From the NCBI GenBank assembly GCA_000827325.1, contig KN832884.1:346953-410952 (forward strand): DNA of 64,000 bases, in the 5' to 3' direction. The notes beneath the pieces were generated by a model that was not told where the DNA came from, ran no database searches, and saw nothing but the letters and a program-made list of their open reading frames with translations. Position numbers and translations under genes: made by a program. The stretch is from Oidiodendron maius Zn (lineage: Eukaryota; Ascomycota; Leotiomycetes; Myxotrichaceae). Numbering within the stretch: the first letter of the stretch is position 1; every line of letters starts with the position of its first letter. Shown one piece after another: positions 3,728-59,049 of the stretch.

Positions 3728-5200
3728 TTAATAGCAGCTCCATCCGTCCTGAATCAGCCTATCTAGTCTCGAAGAGAAACAGTAACCGTTGTTACTAATC
3801 CAACGAAAGAATCCGCCCACACCATTAGCGGTCTCTTGTATGATTGCTGCACCACAGATCCCTTCTCTAACCTCTGAAGCGCCAGTTGCTGGACCAATCG
3901 CATAATATATAGTCGACGGTGTCCATTGCGAAGCCCAGGTCATCTCACAATCCGACTCTGCAGACTCTACATAGCGACAGCCGCTATACAGCAATGCTAC
4001 CTTGCCCGTTGTCATCCCATCACACATGTACCACTCACGACCCTTCATTTCATTACTTGAGAGCAACCTCTGTGGCGTAGGCGAATCAAATATCTGAGAA
4101 TTATTGAATGCAACAGAGGGAGTTAGCTCTGCCAAAGCCCAGTCTTCATCCACATAGCGTTCTTTGATCTCGGCAATGAGGTCGCCGCTATCGCCGTTTG
4201 GGTGAAATACCCGTGTGCATCCTTCGAAGCTATGGGCTGCCAATGTGATCCTAACCTTGGTCCCGTTTCGGACTCTCACACCTGCTGTTGATGCCAGTCT
4301 AGATCCCTCCACTCGAACCCCTGGGCCTAACATTCGATTACCAGTAACTAGGTAATTGGTGTCATCGCCTTTACCAGTATTGTTGGCAGCAGACGTCTCC
4401 CGATTACGTCCTATGGACACTGTCGATTCCCAGTATGGTGTACCACTCAGCTGATAGTGGTATTCTACATGCCACCCCGCGACGCGACTTGGCAAAGACC
4501 TATCTTTGTACTCTCGACCATTGTTGGCTAGTTCTATAACTAGTTTTGGGAATACAAAGTTCATAGCGTAAACGGCGCAATATTTCCGTAACTCGTCCAA
4601 GATCATTTGAGCTTCTTCGGCTGTAGGCTCGTTATATGGACATGACCGAAAAACTTGGAGAAGTGAATCATTGAGGTGCGGATTGCAAAGTCTCAGAGCG
4701 TTACACCACGGAGGGCCGGCATGGAACCCGTCTTGTTCTGTCTGCTTAGATATAAATATGGCTGGGGCGCAGGCGACGGTGAGTGTAACCAACCCATTGT
4801 GTTCAGGAAGTGCTGCGTGCTCTGTTGTAATGACGATGAAAGGAGCGATAAACTCGATTACTCTTGATTTGTAGGTCGTCGAGATCCATTTGGCCTCCGT
4901 TAGTGATGGCTCTCGGTAGTCTTTGGCATCCATATCCCACAGCGAAAATGGGGCCAAATCTAATCGATGCCTTGATCCTCGCGCCTCTTCGCTGATCCAG
5001 GTTCGCTCTTGTTCAATGCGCAGCGGTGAAATTAGAGGATCTCGCGGGGTTGGATGAGAATGAAGGTTGGTCCAACAACTTCCATTATGGAAAAAACTAA
5101 CATATGGTGTAGTCAGACGCAGATCCCGGATCCAGGGTGAAGAACGAGTCCGTCCTACGATATTTGACATGTTTTCAGTTCTTTGGAGGGTATTTGTCAT
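3728..5200 (-). CDS. Unknown protein with chymotrypsin-like fold and GxCG motif
   Basis: A single uninterrupted frame of 490 residues starts with ATG at 5200; a second ATG at residue 11 is possible. I know no named family for it. The first 280 residues show no motif I recognise. The last 200 resemble a trypsin-type domain: VRITLAAHSF (His323) looks like the TAAHC block, DEDWALAEL (Asp353) like the DxAL block, and REGICGAAI (Cys449) sits where GDSGGP normally lies, followed by GVGGFFRW. The nucleophile position is therefore Cys, as in 3C-like proteases, rather than Ser. There is no signal peptide. Neighbours are decayed sequence and a sulfatase, which says nothing about its role. Whether it is an active protease is inference; it could be a non-catalytic relative. 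Confidence 0.6.
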   Translation of the reverse strand: MTNTLQRTENMSNIVGRTRSSPWIRDLRLTTPYVSFFHNGSCWTNLHSHPTPRDPLISPLRIEQERTWISEEARGSRHRLDLAPFSLWDMDAKDYREPSLTEAKWISTTYKSRVIEFIAPFIVITTEHAALPEHNGLVTLTVACAPAIFISKQTEQDGFHAGPPWCNALRLCNPHLNDSLLQVFRSCPYNEPTAEEAQMILDELRKYCAVYAMNFVFPKLVIELANNGREYKDRSLPSRVAGWHVEYHYQLSGTPYWESTVSIGRNRETSAANNTGKGDDTNYLVTGNRMLGPGVRVEGSRLASTAGVRVRNGTKVRITLAAHSFEGCTRVFHPNGDSGDLIAEIKERYVDEDWALAELTPSVAFNNSQIFDSPTPQRLLSSNEMKGREWYMCDGMTTGKVALLYSGCRYVESAESDCEMTWASQWTPSTIYYAIGPATGASEVREGICGAAIIQETANGVGGFFRWISNNGYCFSSRLDRLIQDGWSCY

Positions 5201-5836
5201 TTTTCTTCAAACGCTCTGAAAAAGGATGGCGGGCGTGTTGCAGAAGAGACTGAAGTATTCGATGACGCGCTCAATAGATGGACGGCGTCAATCAGCGACC
5301 CCGCGCGTCATAGGTGCTTCCTTCTTCTTGATGGATATCAGCTCGCCATGGATTCCCCTTTCGACACTCTTTCAATAGCAAATCTTATTGAATATAATGA
5401 TTTTACCTCGCTAAGCTTCACGCACACACTCTCTCTCTTTCATCGATACCTTTCCTTCCTTCCCTCTACGATACTGTTGCCAAACTTCTTGTACTATCAT
5501 CGAGGATCCTGTGATAGAAGAGTCACATAACAGGCCTCCAACTTCCCTAGTTAAATCTTGATTGTCACGCCAACTTTACCTTGAAGAACCTTCTGCTACT
5601 CAAGCAAGAGTCAGCTCCTCTCCAAACCAGATCGACGATGCCAATTCTAACGATAAATAGAATTGATAGAGTGAGGAAAGTCTCAGTACTTTCCTCAATC
5701 TTAGCTCTCCGGCTGATCTTCATCATCTAGCTTATCCAGCTCTATTAACAGACTTCCACCTCAAGCAACCTCTCACCAGGTGAGAGTCATGTCCTTCTAG
5801 TGACACAATCAGCGGGGTCGATTCTAACAATGCATA
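5201..5836. other. intergenic, no gene seen
   Basis: This is the 5' flank of the protease-like gene. It is CT-rich around 5400-5480. I see no coding sequence with family resemblance and no repeat. Confidence 0.4.
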
Positions 5837-6250
5837 ACATCATGGCAGACCTGGATCACGACTTTAACTCATCCGATATTGAGTTTAAACCGGCACCAAG
5901 TAAGGGCCGCAACAACTTAGGCAAACGAACCATTGAAGATATCATCGCCCATGCAACAGAAGATCTAATCTCATCTAAGAAGTCGATCAAGACATTGCAG
6001 TTTGGGCCCAGAGCTCCAGGCACCATTTAGACAGCACATCGCTAGGTAGAGCGGTTGAACGCTTTTCATTAATATACTCTATATCAAAACATCGACCAGC
6101 CATTTACCGGTGATGATCTCATCCGCTTCTTCGATAGCATCATTGGCAAGTTAAAGCCTTCAATCAAAACAAAGCCAGCACCTTCCGTGGAGGTCATTAA
6201 AAATGGCTTGGCGAGTCTCTCCTCCTATGGGACTTTTACATATCCATAAG
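5837..6250 (+). pseudogene. Decayed remnant, possibly of a DUF3435-type gene
   Basis: The first frame reads MADLDHDFNSSDIEFKPAP up to a stop at 6028. A second frame from about 6097 reads FTGDDLIRFFDSIIGKLKP and ends LASLSSYGTFTYP. This layout, with 'GDDL.RFFD' followed by a 'YGTFTYP' ending, reminds me of the N-terminal part of fungal DUF3435 proteins, which are relatives of tyrosine recombinases. The match is from memory only. Stops and a frame change separate the two parts and nothing of the recombinase core follows, so it is a broken fragment if the identity holds. Confidence 0.3.
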
Positions 6251-6626
6251 CTTCGGGGTACAAACTCACCGCAAGAGATGGAAGCAGACTACAGGCCTAG
6301 GTGGATGATGCAGTAAAGTCAAAGTAGCCCGTGCATTTCAACCATAATTAAAACCGGCGTGGCTTCCCCTTACGCAATATTAAGCTAAATGAGAAGAAGA
6401 AGAGGAGAGCTTGCACAAAGGTGCACACGCATATAAATACAGGCCCCGGCCAATCCCTAGCTAAATCCCTAACTTGCCCGATATACCAGGCGGAAGTTTT
6501 TGGCATTTACCACAACCTAGACCTAGACAGATCTTCCGGTAGGAGCGTAATGGGGCAGATTCTTCCTTGGGAATTTTAATGGGCGAGACGCACGCCAAGC
6601 CTATTTCTGATGCTCGTACCGAAATC

Positions 6627-6985
6627 TCAACCTCCTGCAGCATCCCCGCCCTCTAGTTTAACCGTCGAGCACTTCAATTTGGCTAGAGTGCCGATAACAT
6701 CGTCAACTATGGTAGCTACCGTAGCTTCGAAAATGTAGTAGTGAGCAGAGCGTTCTGATCGGTAGGGGAAATAGACGGCGTCCATTCTGAGGCGCCCATC
6801 ACCTGAGTAACTGTCGCTAGCGTCGAGACAACCATCTCCTGTAGGCTTTTGGGTTGCTTGAAATTGTTCACGGACATACGCTAGCAGCCTTTCCGCAAAT
6901 AAACGGCCTAATGGGGTTGTACTCGAGGTCAGCCTCCGCAAGCCCCGGACCCCTCTTCAGCTCCATGATAGACTTGTCTGTAACA
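6627..6985 (-). pseudogene. Unrecognised coding remnant
   Basis: A 104-codon frame contains LLAYVREQFQATQ and then a low-identity stretch. Just upstream, in another frame, the sequence reads MELKRGPGLAEADLEYNP. Codon-like texture spread over two frames suggests a decayed gene fragment rather than a live gene. The layout vaguely resembles the region ahead of fungal FunK1-type kinase domains, but no kinase motif is present. I do not assign a function. Confidence 0.2.
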
Positions 6986-7312
6986 TGGGGGACGTCTAGT
7001 CAGTTGATCTTGAAATCCTCCACGACTGACTCTTGTTGCTTGCTCTGCAGGAAATTCCCAACATCCGCAAACCACTGTTCTCAGGCAGCGGCCGATGGTT
7101 CAGGTCGTCGTCAATCTCCTTGAGGAACAGAAACGTTCTCGTCGTCAAGGAGGAGAGTGGACATTACCTGCCCTGCGATTAGCGAAGCGACCCTCATTTG
7201 CGAGCGAGTGAGACGTTTGGATTAATTAAAGAAGACCAACTTGACGCTGTCTGTCTGTCCCTGTCGGTCATGCTACCCAGATCGGACTTCAGGCTAAGAA
7301 CATATATGTATC

Positions 7313-9766
<2,454 letters not shown>

Positions 9767-47595: not shown

Positions 47596-49940
47596 ATGGT
47601 AAAAAAAAGAGTTGCCGCACTAGACAAGGTGGATGCAGATCTGTTTGTTACCCATATTATCTTACGGAAGTCGAATTAACAACATTCTAGTGCCAACCTT
47701 CAGTATAAGATACGCCGAGATCCTAAGTATGAACATGCACTACCCCCAGGCGATTAATTTCTCACAGCTTATGCAGATCATATGCGGATGACTTTCAAAG
47801 TCAATATCAACAATATTCAAGCCAGCGCGACATCTTTCTAGCATCTCCGAATACGGCGAGCTCTGGAAGTATAGTTTCGTTTCGCGACCTCATCGATCTC
47901 GTAGCACACGTTGCCGACTGCTATCCCGAATTCACAACCACATTCCCCGATGACCTCAAGAGCATCCTCACATTGCATCATGCAACACTCGAGAGTGAGC
48001 TCCGCGAAAAAATCGTCGGGTCGTTGGTCTTGCTGCGGAGGAAAGAGATCATCGACTCCACGGATTTGCTGAACATTTTGTTTCCGATCCTGGTGGCTAC
48101 GCCGAGTAAAACACTGAGGACGCTTTTATATCAGAAGATCTTAAGCGATTTGAGAATGAGCAATTCGAAAGCTACGAATCATAAATTAAATAAGGCGGTG
48201 CAAGCACAGCTGTTTAATCTGTTGATGGCCGACCGTGCAAGTCCGAAGGGATTATGGGCTGTTAAAATCACGAGGGACTTATGGAAACGACAGATATGGA
48301 CAGATGCAAAAGCTGTCGAGATTATGAAGGAGGCGAGCCTGGCTGATAATGAGAAGGTTATTGGTGGTGGTGTGAGGTTCTTCCTGGGAGGAGATAAAGA
48401 GAGAGAGGAGCTGGAGGACGAGAGCAGCGATGATGATGGCGCTATTGATATTGGCAAGTTGAAACACCAAGTTGGAATAAATAAGAAGACGAAAAAGAAG
48501 GCTAAGGCCTTGGAAAAGGCTGTCGAAAAGGTCAAGAAGATCGAGAAGAAGAAGAAGCAACCCCACCCTCTCAACTTTTCCGCCCTCCATCTCCTTCACG
48601 ATCCTCAGGGGTTTGCCGAGCAACTGTTCTCCAAGCACTTGCAAAGTTCAAAATCAAAACTCAACCTCGAGCAGAAGCTGCTAGTCCTACAACTAGTATC
48701 ACGACTAGTCGGCCTCCACCAGCTCACCATAATATCCCTCTATTCCTATTTTATCAAATACCTCACCCCGCGCCAACCGTCCGTCACGTCCTTCCTCGCC
48801 TCCCTTGCTCAGGCAACGCACAAATTGGTGCCTCCAGATGCCCTAGAACCGCTTATACATAAGATTGCCAACGAGTTCGTCTCAGAAGCGTCAGCGTCGG
48901 AGGTCGCGTCTGCTGGCTTGAATGCTATTCGAGAGATTTGTATGCGACAGCCGATGGCGATGAATGACACTTTACTTCAAGATCTTGTTATGTATAGGAA
49001 AAGTAAGGATAAAGGTACCATGATGGCAGCAAAAGGCCTATTAAGTTTGTATCGGGAAGCAAATCCTGATCTATTGAAGAAGAGGGATCGGGGTAAAGCG
49101 GCAATCATGGGAATTAAGAGTGGAGTAATGAAAGAGAGGAGATTTGGAGAAGAAGAAGTTGGAGGGATTGAAGGTCTTGAACTCCTTGAGCAATGGAAGG
49201 AGCAGGAGCGAAAGCGGAAGAGGATAGAGAGAGGGCTGCCCGAAGATCTCGCTACAGATGAGGAAGAAGAAGAGGACGAGGGAGAATATTGGGCAGCTTG
49301 GGATGTAGAGTCAGATGCTAGCAGTGATTCTGGGGGTTGGATTAACGTGGACAGTGATGCGGAGATCGAAATCAGCGACAGCGAGGACGAAAAGCCTGCA
49401 TCTAAGAAAGTAAAATTAGATGCAGGTAAAGAGGGAGAAAAGGAAAAACCCCCCGCAGAGGAAGTCAAACCAACTGTCTCGAAGCTTGCAACGACCAAGA
49501 TCCTCACCCCCGCTGACTTGGCCAAGCTGCAAGAACTTCGGCTGGAAGCCTCTGTGAATAAAGCCATGGGTAACCGAGCACAATCTGCCCGCTTGAAAGA
49601 GCTCGCAGCACGGCACATAGACGACGAGCTCACAGCCGAGCAAATAGAAGGCTTCGCGCGCCTACGCAAGAGCACCAAGGAGGAGCGAATAGCAATGGCG
49701 CGCGAGGGTAAGGGTGACCGGCGTGAGCATAGAAGCACGCAGGCGCTGAGACGAGAGAAGAAAGACGCAGAAGGCAAGAGTACGACAAATAGGGAGAAGG
49801 CTAGAAAAAAGAACTTCCTAATGACGTTAGGCAAGGCGAAGGGGAAGGGGAAGAGGAGTCTTACGGAAACGAGGAGGGTATTGAAGGGGCATATTGAGAG
49901 AAGTAAAAGAGGTGGCAAAAGAGGAAATATCGGCAAGTAG
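47596..49940 (+). CDS. sda1: Sda1, 60S ribosome biogenesis factor
   Basis: Three exons are needed: 47596-47642, 47691-47726 and 47777-49940, giving 748 residues. The start reads MVKKRVAALDKVDADL, then ANLQYKIRRDPKSYADDFQ across two short introns, as in Sda1 of yeast. A HEAT-like helical body follows (SELREKIVGSLVLLRRKEII, DLWKRQIWTDAKAVEIM, FFLGG). A charged insertion and an acidic stretch (TDEEEEEDEGEYWAAWDVES) come next. The C-terminus is basic, with LTETRRVLKGHIERSKRGGK. Sda1 is an essential nuclear protein for 60S maturation and export and for cell-cycle progress in yeast. The 36-base second exon is easily missed by gene finders. Confidence 0.93.
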
Positions 49941-50600
49941 ATACGTTATAAGACGGAGCTTCTCGTAACCGGCGTACTGTGATGTAAATGAAAAGCTTGT
50001 CTCCATATATATTTCCCGACTCTTCACATACTCAGTGCCAGAATCTGAGCACTGAATAAGCCAAATAAAATTGAAGGGGAATGGCGCCAAAATCATTCCT
50101 GGTGATGAAAGAAGAAAGAGGCAACAAAACTAAATGGTCTCGTTATGACCATATCAAGACAAAATATTCAGGAACCGAAGAGATTGAGCTGGATTGAGCT
50201 GGATATTGGTTGGTTGATCCACAGACGTGGTTAATGCATGTCCTAGAGCTGAGGTTCCTCGGGATCAAAGTCTTCTATTTAAGAGATTGGCCAAAATACA
50301 TCGATGTGTGAGATTTCCAAGATCAAGGAACTGGTTGGCCTTGAAGTAGGCATTAGTCACGCCTTGTGATTGCAGCGCGTGCGATCATACCAAGGAAAGC
50401 TACATGAAATAACTACGACAACAAGAGCAGTGCATAGGCCGTCGTGGAGTAAAGTATAGATCCCTTGACATCTACTTTACACGTCTGCCGCAATGTGTCT
50501 AAAGAAATGACTCAATCATCATACATATTGGCACACTAAAGTAATTTTACAACCTGTGTTCTATCCACCCTGAATAATGCTATCACGTGAATTGTTATCC
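49941..50600. other. 3' flank of sda1, no gene seen
   Basis: This AT-rich sequence leads into the repeat array. No conserved core of the array was found here. Confidence 0.4.
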
Positions 50601-50601
50601 C

Positions 50602-51953
50602 TTTGATGCAGATCGCAAAAAAAAACTCCACGGGCATCATGGTAACGTACTCGCACCATTTGATCCCTTTGGTTCCTAGTATCATGTGTAGCGTCACATT
50701 CCTGACGCAGGTTGCATATTACAGAGCCATAGAACGCAACATTGGCATTTTCGTGATAGTCTGACAACACTTAGGTAGTTTTATATGTCAAAATAACTGC
50801 TCGCTCGCGTATCAACTTGAGTCTTTGACGCACATCGCATCGAAAACTGCCAATGGCCACGGCGGGGAGTCTGGAGGCATAGAGACGTCAGTATCCTAGC
50901 AGGTGGACGTTATGAATCTTTATATCCCAGAACTCCAATCTTTGACGCAGGTCGCACTAACGATCTTTATTTTTCCTCGGGTATCTGCATTTCCCTTGAC
51001 TCATCACATGTGTCTCCGCTTCTATATCCGTACTTTTGACTCAGGTTGTAGAAACTCAGCTGCTTCAACTTCAATACGGCACAAAGTGTCTACCGTGACT
51101 GGCGGTGCTATATGTTCACGCTCGAATATGATATTTGACGCATATCGCAGAAACTCAGCCTTTGGGCTTCCAATAAGGCGCACAGAGACATCCTGGGCTT
51201 GTGTTTCTGTCTGATGCGTCACATGTATTCATATTTGAAGTGGAATTTGACGCACATCGCAGAGTACGAAGTTTTGAGATGCCAATACGGCGCTGCGTGT
51301 GAATGCAGCGGAATAATCGGATCTAAGCTTTGGAGCATTAAAGGAATTACTCAAGTTTTGAGGTATATCGCAAAGAAGAGGTTTGTAAGCACCAGGTGCA
51401 TCTGTTCCACCCATCACGTGCGTACGGGTATATTTGGAGCTTCCATATTTTGACGCATGTCGTGGAAATCCAAAAGTTCAAAGCCCAATACAGCGCAGTT
51501 TGGCAATGCAATGACACGCCAATTGGCTTGCCCTTCCTGAATTCTCACGTGCCATAACATTCAAGCGTAATATTTTGACGCACATCGCAGATGCAACAGT
51601 TTGTCAGCATCTTGCATGTGAGGCTGTCGTTGGGCATCACGTGTAGTCTCAAATAGGAATCTTAGGCCTTTTTGACGCGCATCGCAAAAACGTCTTGGAG
51701 ACGAGTCCGATACAGGGCATAATGCACCGTTTTATTGAGCCTTCACGTGCACTGGCACGTGAATATCTTATGCTTTGACGCACATCGCATGGAAGACTAT
51801 GTGACAATATCATCCACGGGGTAATTCTTAAACTCATCACGGTCAATGCCACGTGCTTTAAGAGAGGAAAGTTTTGACGCACATCGCACGATGATTTCAG
51901 CGAGCAGATGCCTCTGCGAGAGGTGCAGCCCGCTCTCTGCTGTTGGTCACGTG
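50602..51953 (+). repeat. Array of 13 diverged direct repeats, ~106-bp period
   Basis: A 16-base core, best form TTTGACGCACATCGCA, recurs on one strand at 50602, 50701, 50824, 50941, 51035, 51134, 51246, 51357, 51449, 51574, 51671, 51774 and 51873. The spacing is 92-125 bases, mean 106. Five units also carry a CCAATA-like second box exactly 36 bases after the core start (51071, 51170, 51282, 51485, 51707), often followed by CGGCGC. Most later units contain TCACGTG or TCACATG. The sequence between boxes is diverged. Both flanking genes end towards the array, so it is not in a promoter. No protein or RNA gene is recognised. Confidence 0.9.
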
Positions 51954-52376: not shown

Positions 52377-54719
52377 CTAGCTTATCCAGCCTTGGGAAGG
52401 GTCGACGGGAATACTTGGATCACCAGTGTAGGCGGGAAGATCCCCATCCATCAGGGTCTGCCAATACTCCCAATCCACGGGTGTTATCTCCGGTATCGTC
52501 ATGTTCAGTCCTATTCCAGCCTTATTCCACAGATCATTCGTAGTATTGTACGAATTATATCCGGGAATAACGTTGGCGTATTGAGCCATTTGATTCGAGT
52601 CTATGGACGAATTATCATGTCTATTCAGGCTTTCTGGCGTTGGCTGCTGTGATTGGATTTGAGGCGGTGTAGGTGTAGGCGGCTCGGGAATTTTCCTCTG
52701 CATTCGCAATTTTGATATGTAACGTGGAATTGGTACTAGCTGAGTTCCTTTATACCTGCCACCAGCTTCTTCGTATTTTGTCCATGCCTTGAGGCAGAGG
52801 CTTCCCATAGCGAAGTATAAAGTGTTTTTATTCTCCGTAAGCATCTCCGGCCGATGTTCATAAGCAATCTCAACTTGGCGCCATGCGCGTTCGACGAGTT
52901 CTCCGGTCGTCCGGTTACGGAGCTCGCTCAGCACATATATAAACGCGTCAAGATGAAATTGGACGTGAGTGTGCCAGAGGAAGCCTTGCATAGCTTTGTC
53001 CAAGTGGCAAGCAGCTGCAATCTCTAACTCCTTCAGACTCTCAGCCCAGAGCATATCCTTTTCTTGTTGTGGCATACTGGCCCCCTTGTCTGGATATTGG
53101 CGAGGATGATGGGCCAGCATTCTCATCATGCAAATGACAGACTTGGCCATATATATGCAAATCATATGTAATGGTATCGATGGGTCGCAGTACTGGATGT
53201 AATATTTATGAAATCGATCCTCAAGTTCATCAATCGCTTTATCTTTGCCAGGGATGCATTCCGATCCAGTGGTAAGGTGCCACATGCCGTCACTGTCCAG
53301 CGTTCCAGTCTTTCTAAAGGCGCCACCCACCTCGGCCCGGAGACGACAAAACATCATCTCCGTTGCCCCTTCTTTCTCAACAGGAGTCTCCTTCATTGTT
53401 GGGCTCAGGTCGCTGTCGCTCACATTCAGCGGGAGTTTGGTATCGAATTTCCCCAGCCAGGTAGGAAAGCCGGTACCGGCAAGTTTTGACGCTTGTCCAT
53501 CTAAGAAGACTACTTGCCACCACGTTCGCCTTCTGATCTCAGCTTCAAATGGAGGGATTTTATGCGTAATGCCGTCGTGTTGTATTCCGAGTCGCACTGC
53601 GATCCGCACAGCGCAGCCAGTAAGAACCCACTGAGATTGGTGATCAAGAGATCTTCGAAGAGAAAGCTAGTACAATCAGCACCAGCACTAGAAGCGTAGC
53701 ACTCAAGAAGGAGAGCTACTATGAGGAAAAGAAATTATACGTTGGTAATGGGATATGATTTTAATGGGACAACCTCAGCATTTGGTTTAGGGCAACTCAC
53801 AAGATATATGCAGAATGCTTGCAATGTTGAGAGACTAAGTGACTTAAGGAACCTTGCATTAACCAAAGATTGCTGTGTGGCGTGAGAGTACTTGGTCAGG
53901 AGAGCGCTCCTTTGCTCATTAAACATACTCTCGCATTCCTCGTCAGACAACGAAGTAACGGCCAGGAGATAGATAGAAAACATCAAAGCTTCGGTATGTC
54001 TTGGAATATTTTGTAGATCGCTACTTGCATCCAAGATAACCTGTTGCATGGTAGGTGCATGAAAAAATTTAGTCAAAGGATTGCAATTAGTGAGATATGT
54101 TTGCCACAACCTGAAGATTTGGACTGGTTGTGGATGCAGGAAGCTCAAGTCTTTTGGCGCAGAATCAGGGTCAATGAGAAAAGCCTCATGGTGAGGATAA
54201 ATCTCATGCTCGTGAGTCTCCTCGTCCGATGACGCCTGAAGGGCATCTTTTGGGTCTTCGATGATCTCATCTCTCAAATGCTCCCATAATGTACTACAGC
54301 CGTCAGTACAATGTTATCGCAGCATGTCGTTGGATATACTTCTCAACATAACGCGAGTGCTGGCTATCAGCAAGCATTAATCCCTTTGATCCTTTTGAGG
54401 CTGGATACCAGTCTCTCTCTTTTGACATTTGACCTCCATCGCTTGGTTCCTCGTCTTCCACCTTGATTCCGTGCTTCTTCAGCAGAAACTCATATCTCCG
54501 GAGCTTCGTAGCCAGGTCCTGCTCAGAAAACTTTCTCTTCCTCCTACGCGGTAGTGTTGGCACGCTTGGGATGCATTCTGCTCGCGCCTTCACGCAATTT
54601 GAACATGGCTTCTGCCTATCACACTTGACCTTCCGCTGCTGGCATAACACGCAGGAATGGGCCCGGACAATCTTGGGAGAGCTAGAGGCCTCGGGCGTCT
54701 GAGATGGTGAGGCAAGCAT
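52377..54719 (-). CDS. Zn2Cys6 transcription factor with fungal_trans domain
   Basis: Exons 54719-54340, 54293-53801 and 53630-52377 give about 708 residues. The Zn2Cys6 cluster is complete: Cys23, 26, 33, 39, 42 and 49 in CVLCQQRKVKC...CSNCVKARAEC, followed by a basic RRRKRKF linker and a short coiled coil. The first junction gives SRYVENTLWEHLRDE, a block common in this class. PF04082-type motifs follow (GCAVRIAVRLGIQHDG, EIRRRTWWQVVFLDGQASKL). The second intron would be 170 bases and may hide a small exon, so that join is less sure. It is divergent from an MFS exporter gene, which is a natural candidate target. Confidence 0.85.
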
Positions 54720-55332
54720 CCTTGACGCGAGTGGAGCAGGGGAGGTAGATGAGATTGATCGCGAAAGTAAGACGGGTTGACGATGGCGATATATGAAGAG
54801 AGGTTGAGACCATATTAGGCATAGCATCGGACTCCGGGACTCGCGGGGTTTAATCGGTCCCGAAATCCCGAGGTCCCGACTACGGTGTAACAATCACGTG
54901 ACTGACCTCTTTTGAAATCTGGACTGGCTGAATCGGAATAGAATTTAGATAGTGGTAGAGAGCGCGAGTGAGCCAGCTGTGGTTATAAACGTATACTTCT
55001 CAGATAGAGAATAATACTCCGGTTTCTACGTCAAGATCATAGTCCCATATTTCTGTGACTTGCGACTGGTCAGGTTGTCTCTCAACCCCCTGTAGACTGC
55101 TTCGGATCCGAAGGACAGCTACATTTCCGGTAACACCACCAAAGCTCCCGCCTCAAACCAGCTTCCACGGCGCCTTAGATTTTTCCGACCAACACACAAT
55201 ACACTAAAATGCTGCCTGTCAAAGCCCACGCGGCGTCAATCTGGTTAAATTTGCTTCGTATATAACAAACTTGGATACCCCCATCTCTCAACGACCTCCA
55301 GCCACCACTTCAAAACACGGTACAGCGCAAAA
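54720..55332. promoter_or_regulatory. Divergent promoter, regulator and MFS exporter
   Basis: The 613 bases lie between two divergent start codons. A TCACGTGA palindrome lies at 54894-54901, of the same type as the boxes in the repeat array. Open frame on the regulator side extends to 54893 but without a better start. Confidence 0.5.
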
Positions 55333-57861: not shown

Positions 57862-59049
57862 CTAACTTAAAAACTCAGCAGACTTTCCAGCGGAACTGTT
57901 TATCAAATCCGTTACAACTCTGCAGATCATGCCAAGCATCATTTGATCAGCATCAGTAACCTGGAACGCCGAAAGGAAACGGTTGATCATATCAGGATGC
58001 CACTTTTGGCACTCTTTCCGCATAAGCCTTGACATATTCCCCTCCGTTTCTCCTGACCTCTGCAAGAATTCCTTGACACTCGAGGAAGTCACGTCACGAT
58101 ATAAACCTGACTTGACCGGCCATGGAATATCGTCTCGGATACTCTTCCCCCGGTGTCCTGAAGCCCTAAACTGTGTCCATCGCTCCTCATATTTCTTCCA
58201 TGACTGATTCCATTCCTTCTGCTCCTTCTGTTCCCGTTCACGCTTCTCACGTTCTCTTTCTTCACGCAATTTTTTGGCTCTTTGGCGGATGCGCTCGTTC
58301 TGAGCTGCGTGCTCGCGTTCGCGCCGTTCTTTCTCTTCCTTTTCTTTCCTCTCTTTTTCCAGTCGCTTTTTCTCTTGGCATTCTTTCTCAAGTCGTTCCT
58401 TCTCTAGGCGTTCCTTCTCTAGGCGTTCCTTCTCAAGCCGTTCCTTTTCCTGCTTCTTTGCTTCCCTGTCTTTTTCCTGGCGTTTGCGTTCCTCTTCATT
58501 TCTGTTTTTTGTAGCTCGCTCTTCTCCTTGTTTTGACTCCTCGTCTTGGCATTGCCGGCTCTTGGCCGCTTGAACCTCAGCCAGAAATTCCCTTATTTCA
58601 CGTAGTTGTGCACGGAGATCCTCTATACATTCGTCCTTTATGACTACCTTTGTCCCGCCGCTTTGGATACTCTTGGCAGTCTTTGGTTCTCGTAACTGGG
58701 GCTTTAGCTGTTGAAGCGTACTCTGCCAGCGGGCAATAACTGTGTCGGCTTGGTTCTGGTGGTATCTGACACAGAGCGCTGGCCCAACAATTTCCCGGAG
58801 CCGAGATAAGACAGCTGGGCTGTCAGGATGAAGGTATGCAATGTCACTTAATGTTTGCATAATGAATTCTCTGTTGTCTTTCCGGATTGGATTTTGACAA
58901 CGTCGTCGTTTTGAGGGCGCATGGCCGATGCAGGTAATGCATTCATATCCAGGGGCCATATTGATGATTTCGAGGGTCTTTGAAGGATCCCATAGCTTTT
59001 TTCTTTCGGACGATGCCGTATCGCGAGAAAATTGGGTATAATAAACCAT
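57862..59049 (-). CDS. Coiled-coil protein with CIG...CxNPI head and J-like tail
   Basis: The intronless frame has 395 residues from an ATG at 59049; a second ATG at residue 31 (MAPGYECITCIGHAPSKRRR) may be the true start. The head has CITCIGHAPSKRRRCQNPI and GPALCVRYHQNQ, a pattern I have seen in fungal hypothetical proteins. A long charged coiled coil (about 160-290) contains repeated KERLE pentads (about 203-226). The tail reads IPWPVKSGLYRDV, VKEFLQR and LMRKECQKWHPDMINRF; the KWHPD block resembles the HPD turn of DnaJ-like domains. I assign no function. DNA repeats in the pentad region (TTCTCTAGGCGTTCC) could vary in number. Confidence 0.65.
   Translation of the reverse strand: MVYYTQFSRDTASSERKKLWDPSKTLEIINMAPGYECITCIGHAPSKRRRCQNPIRKDNREFIMQTLSDIAYLHPDSPAVLSRLREIVGPALCVRYHQNQADTVIARWQSTLQQLKPQLREPKTAKSIQSGGTKVVIKDECIEDLRAQLREIREFLAEVQAAKSRQCQDEESKQGEERATKNRNEEERKRQEKDREAKKQEKERLEKERLEKERLEKERLEKECQEKKRLEKERKEKEEKERREREHAAQNERIRQRAKKLREEREREKREREQKEQKEWNQSWKKYEERWTQFRASGHRGKSIRDDIPWPVKSGLYRDVTSSSVKEFLQRSGETEGNMSRLMRKECQKWHPDMINRFLSAFQVTDADQMMLGMICRVVTDLINSSAGKSAEFLS

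Follow-up and report, generated by a model that had tools for sequence, protein, structure and literature searches.

The window analyzed here is a stretch of 64,000 nucleotides (C15:346953-410952) from the 45.9-Mb genome of Oidiodendron maius Zn, an ericoid mycorrhizal fungus of the Leotiomycetes whose assembly comprises 58 contigs. A 5.8S rRNA search of that assembly gave no match among 39 scored of 1307 candidates, so ribosomal DNA may be missing from it. Within the window, an array of 13 copies of a 16-bp sequence, box A, is flanked by two genes (Table 1) that converge on it, as the sequence-only reading of this DNA had proposed. The upstream gene encodes SDA1, and its product matches one from Oidiodendron maius Zn at 100% identity; because the public SDA1 has 748 aa and the open reading frame here 655 aa, the gene starts farther upstream than the frame. 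The gene on the other side was called a Zn2Cys6-type transcription factor from a cysteine pattern read by eye in the open reading frame at 54303-54893, and a Pfam scan of the part of this gene at 52386-53552 returned no hit. Elsewhere in the window, an imperfect 15-bp and 30-bp tandem repeat occupies positions 58352-58446, within a predicted minus-strand coding sequence (57925-59027).

Table 1. Positions of the boxes, genes and repeat units discussed in the text (window coordinates unless a locus, L, or contig, C, is given)
Feature	Position	Strand	Remarks
SDA1 open reading frame	47973..49940	+	3′ end toward array
Palindromic TCACGTGA	50583..50590	none	TCACGTG 19 bp ahead of first box A
Box A array, 13 copies, AC form TTTGACGCACATCGCA	50602..51888	+	16 bp each
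Box A starts	50602, 50701, 50824, 50941, 51035, 51134, 51246, 51357, 51449, 51574, 51671, 51774, 51873	+	
Box B, TCACGTG	51414, 51545, 51637, 51743, 51947	+	span 51414..51953
Zn2Cys6-type transcription factor gene	52377..54893	-	apparently several exons; 3′ end toward array
Other AC-form cluster	L009:4378-5271 (contig C12)	both	several CACGTG; adjoins DUF3818 gene
MAT alpha-box gene	L049, C1:2547950-2548354		single match to alpha-box family in genome
Family A repeat unit, ~107 bp, box included	L011:4557-5001, L014:4463-4586, L015:5373-5496; C1:2670690, C1:2787431		
Family B repeat unit, ~100-115 bp, box included	L013:4118-5099, L022:4209		
NDC10_II + GCR1_C gene, Crypton-like	L019:4900-7470, C1 ~1470900-1473470		Pfam scan

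All 13 copies of box A lie on the plus strand at a mean spacing of 105.9 bp, in agreement with the earlier description of same-strand 16-base cores with a period of about 106. At up to three mismatches, TTTGACGCACATCGCA is found at 10 of the 13 copies, when shuffled sequence gives 0.56 matches per whole window, and the sole further match in the window at this threshold (18775) lies outside the array. Five of the 13 copies are exact, and those at 50701, 51035 and 51449 are weaker. Mean pairwise identity among the boxes is 0.82 (ungapped). The spacers reach a gapped identity of 0.73 versus 0.71 when shuffled, with a mean score of -3.1 versus -7.0 (sd 4.0), so little above the shuffled level that spacer kinship survives only as faint relics. 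These values bear out the earlier claim that the core was kept while the spacers diverged. Fragments such as CAATACGGCGCA are common to a few spacers, which suggests that the array was derived from an old tandem duplication. Tandem Repeats Finder called no array at 50602-51888, and the GC content of the array is 0.46.

A second box, absent from the sequence-only reading, accompanies the first. CACGTG, a classic bHLH site, is present in 6 of the 13 units. The first four copies of box B precede the following box A by 35, 29, 34 and 31 bp, counted between starts. Additional CACGTG sequences are present at 51756 and 51850.

A genome-wide family of boxes

The box recurs throughout the Oidiodendron maius genome, and the window array is a single locus of this wider element. 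Its most frequent form, TTTGTTGCAYRTCGCA, has 116 exact sites in the genome (69 forward and 47 reverse), and a reversed-pattern control has none. Allowing one mismatch gives 188 sites versus 6 for the control, so that 72 sites carry a mismatch; under neutral decay, this ratio of exact to one-mismatch copies would correspond to about 4% divergence per base. With the boxes masked, however, 37 of the 46 clusters sampled had unrelated flanks. The flanks of the remaining nine were similar to those of another cluster and link L011, L014 and L015, L013 and L022, more weakly L018, L037 and L038, and, by a 26-bp match only, L027 and L011. The box looks constrained because one-mismatch copies are fewer than exact ones even though the flanks are mostly unrelated, and the selection on the boxes postulated in the sequence-only reading is supported, on evidence from this single fungal genome and from loci that were picked by box matches rather than at random. 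A position profile of 87 dereplicated sites out of 99 carries high information at 16 positions and falls near background 1-4 bases beyond the box on either side; the bases immediately before the box show a T and a slight leaning toward purines. The sites in this profile were gathered by motif, which biases conservation within the box, whereas the exact-to-mismatch ratio is free of that bias.

Forms without T at the first variable position account for 18 exact sites in the genome. Ten have the letters AC, seven of them in the window array, two on contig 12 (L009) and a single one on contig 6; the other eight have different letter pairs, and one of these eight also lies inside the window array. 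The AC form with one mismatch allowed has 31 genome sites versus 3 for the control, and these divide into nine in the window array, four on contig 12 at or near the center of L009 and 18 scattered sites (a fifth match on contig 12 is weak and belongs with the scattered ones). The AC form of the window array is therefore rare in the rest of the genome. CACGTG lies within 120 bp of the box at 7 of 12 AC-form sites versus 11 of 93 TT-form sites (p 0.0007), although the AC-form cases are not independent, as 11 of the 12 come from two loci. No further motif common to the box flanks stood out after correction for the number of words tried. The box may resemble forkhead FHL (GACGC) and RFX sites. As expected, neither viral contigs (searched with the TT form) nor prokaryote contigs (both forms) contained box pairs 91-121 bp apart. 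A sequence-string search of the open-access literature gave no fungal genomic element among the matches listed.

Arrangement of the boxes and the mating-type region

Polarity is not confined to the window. Across 41 stretches including it, 61 of 74 pairs of neighboring boxes up to 700 bp apart are on the same strand, an excess with p 7e-9 assuming independent pairs; some same-strand pairs stem from recognizable tandem units. Spacings of 91-159 bp account for 38 of these 61 pairs, and a single pair is closer than 67 bp. Opposite-strand boxes are present within some clusters, and since many loci have a single box, arrays are not essential. In four other arrays, box identity is 0.85-0.90 (ungapped) versus 0.69-0.77 (gapped) for the downstream DNA and 0.68-0.72 for shuffled sequence; the upstream DNA spans 0.68-0.84, and in L011 it is level with the box (0.84 versus 0.85).

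None of 68 boxes falls inside a predicted coding sequence, against an expected coding share of about 38%; coding regions were predicted by a home-made gene finder, and the gene calls are approximate. The 24 box intervals comprise 9 convergent, 12 tandem and 3 divergent ones, and the 40 box-free intervals, from the window and the fetched loci, comprise 8, 19 and 13, with L011, L027 and five of eight later loci left out of these classes as unclassifiable. A bias of box intervals toward convergent genes is a hint only. It looked significant when 21 intervals had been classified (p 0.014 by count and 0.004 by length, with divergent depletion at 0.002), but none of the three classifiable loci added later was convergent, and the direct Fisher tests gave p 0.15 (the convergent counts above) and 0.08.

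Exact sites crowd at C1:2.35-3.05 Mb, for which a mating-type locus and a centromere were the candidates named ahead of the alpha-box result. With those less than 5 kb apart merged, the exact sites form 86 loci, of which 13 are no more than 500 kb from the MAT alpha-box gene when 1.87 are expected (about sevenfold, p 5e-8), and the enrichment has p 2e-7 conditional on the sites of C1 itself. These counts rest on 105 placed sites of the 116; the other 11 lie past the stretch of C15 covered by the listing, and each was counted as a locus of its own. Part of the enrichment reflects local copying, given that two families of repeat units are confined to C1:2.52-3.02 Mb: family A has at least nine matches, all in that interval, and family B at least seven, all at C1:2.63 and 2.73 Mb. 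The ~11 kb around the MAT gene contain weak box matches only. Among the listed sites, C1 is the only contig with a dense region, and no 500-kb window elsewhere contains more than 4 loci. An AT-rich control pattern for regional density gave 29 matches, none of them in C1:2.05-3.05 Mb, and has little power.

A putative docking platform and its alternatives

The array is probably a platform on which a single sequence-specific DNA-binding protein docks, and among the candidate natures named in the sequence-only reading a protein-binding platform is the best fit to the sequence evidence. The putative protein would read a 16-17 bp asymmetric site, T-TTTG(TT/AC)GCAYRTCGCA, and its molecules would load at intervals in one orientation, giving the DNA between genes a polar structure. 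In the window array, a CACGTG-binding factor (bHLH, Cbf1-like) probably binds beside box A. With less confidence, we suggest that a ~106-bp unit underwent ancient tandem duplication and that mainly the protein contacts were kept thereafter. As for what such a platform would do, a chromosome-level role (an RTS1-like polar fork barrier, a boundary or recombination control) is a possibility short of an even one, and so is ordinary promoter activation. We lean slightly to the chromosome-level role because the boxes lie between genes, the arrays are polar and the sites are concentrated in the MAT region.

Promoter activation would make the boxes conventional, enhancer-like sites of a fungal regulator, with the arrays acting as strong homotypic enhancers of one or both neighbors, and we regard this as a tentative alternative. 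It accords with the intergenic positions, with the CACGTG beside AC-form boxes and with boxes upstream of some genes, for example the two at L019:4136 and 4315, ~575-755 bp before a possible start of an NDC10/GCR1_C gene (an intron is needed). It accords less well with the scarcity of divergent genes among the classified box intervals and with the window itself, where both genes end toward the array. Additionally, a Pfam scan of 40 open reading frames, mostly beside boxes, found no evident common function, and 11 of them had no hit.

Somewhat more doubtful is an RTS1-like polar replication fork barrier or terminator. Same-strand boxes that lie between convergent genes and around MAT would then halt forks, or transcription, arriving from one direction. 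The box is asymmetric and the arrays are same-strand, convergent genes are found at the window and at 8 other intervals, and RTS1 is likewise repeated, polar and near the mating-type locus (PMC10473836). On the other side, the convergent bias is weak and the orientation of the boxes relative to the genes is inconsistent.

The two boxes at L019 also point to a weak candidate for the binder. The NDC10/GCR1_C gene there has a GC content of 0.63-0.68 (over 5001-7500) versus 0.48-0.58 in the rest of the locus, and among the scanned open reading frames it is the one that combines a recognized DNA-binding family with boxes located 5′ of it, a lead found after scanning many neighbors. A genome search gave two matches to NDC10_II and five to GCR1_C, and the 4 kb around the other NDC10_II gene contain no box. 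The tyrosine recombinase of fungal Cryptons carries GCR1_C, and Cryptons are the source of yeast Cbf2/Ndc10 and Gcr1 (PMC3212892). It is unlikely, though conceivable, that one protein, which might be a Crypton recombinase (NDC10/GCR1_C) that has been domesticated, binds polar arrays of the 16-bp box at intervals of ~100-150 bp and so marks intergenic barriers, concentrated over a 0.7-Mb region in which the mating-type gene lies, where it would shape replication or recombination.

The boxes could instead be terminal or subterminal recognition sequences of a transposon, perhaps Crypton-like, with the arrays as leftovers, a reading that we judge decidedly improbable. One of the two NDC10_II genes has two upstream boxes, and the family A and family B units are found in several places. 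Terminal repeats around a shared interior, as in CryptonF or another transposon, are at odds with the mostly unrelated flanks of the clusters, however, and the lack of boxes at the second NDC10_II gene and the excess of exact over one-mismatch copies also speak against mobility. The inverted box pairs at L010, L012 and L018 resembled terminal repeats, but by eye the flanks of all three lack target-site duplications. Less credible still is a noncoding RNA locus with repeated modules, another nature named in the sequence-only reading, which is not supported. The strand bias within arrays would suit it, but there is no Rfam match at E<=1, folding is weak (mean z ~ -0.7 on either strand, with single plus-strand units from -2.8 to 0.3), boxes occur on both strands in some clusters and the spacers are nearly unalignable. 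A series of coding exons or a protein repeat, which the sequence-only reading had set against a functional array, is excluded by 13-26 stops in each of the six frames and by spacings that vary modulo 3 with no constant phase.

Comparison with known systems

We know of no filamentous fungus in which constrained sites of such length and with such sharp limits form spaced polar arrays. Being short and abundant, the box is an obvious bait for protein pulldown, and the concentration in the MAT region would tie the boxes to the question of how replication and recombination are controlled near the mating-type loci of fungi.

Several known systems share individual features with the putative docking platform. 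Homotypic transcription-factor clusters are repeated near-identical sites in noncoding DNA, as are the boxes, which differ from them in their common ~100-150 bp spacing and strong strand bias. The budding-yeast point centromere contains CDEI and CDEIII with Cbf1 and Cbf2/Ndc10, and Oidiodendron maius likewise has CACGTG beside a longer box (in the window and contig 12 arrays) and an NDC10-like gene. In contrast to one CDEI-CDEII-CDEIII unit per chromosome, however, there are many boxes on single contigs, so a point centromere is rejected; the very AT-rich spacer is also lacking (array GC content 0.46). The CENP-B box is a 16-17 bp sequence kept in alphoid monomers whose other sequence diverges, much as the 16-bp box is kept here amid diverged units, although the arrays, as far as seen, are short and lie between genes rather than in large satellite blocks. 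The pairing centers of C. elegans, bound by the HIM-8/ZIM zinc fingers, consist of a short motif that is clustered and denser in one chromosome region (PMC7140621). The box too is a short motif in clusters that is denser in one region, but a dense region on C1 only, among the 105 of 116 sites placed, differs from one per chromosome, and this identity was rejected. The last system is RTS1 of S. pombe, close to the mating-type locus, where the Myb protein Rtf1 binds four repeated motifs in ~450 bp and forks arriving from one direction are stopped (PMC10473836). Oidiodendron maius has more than 100 sites, known from their sequence, in place of one element. The likeness would lie in the repetition of motifs in one orientation, which is found at the sequence level both in the 13 same-strand copies of the window and in the pairs of neighboring boxes at large, in a spacing that works out by division at ~110 bp for RTS1, and in polar arrays that are dense in the MAT region.
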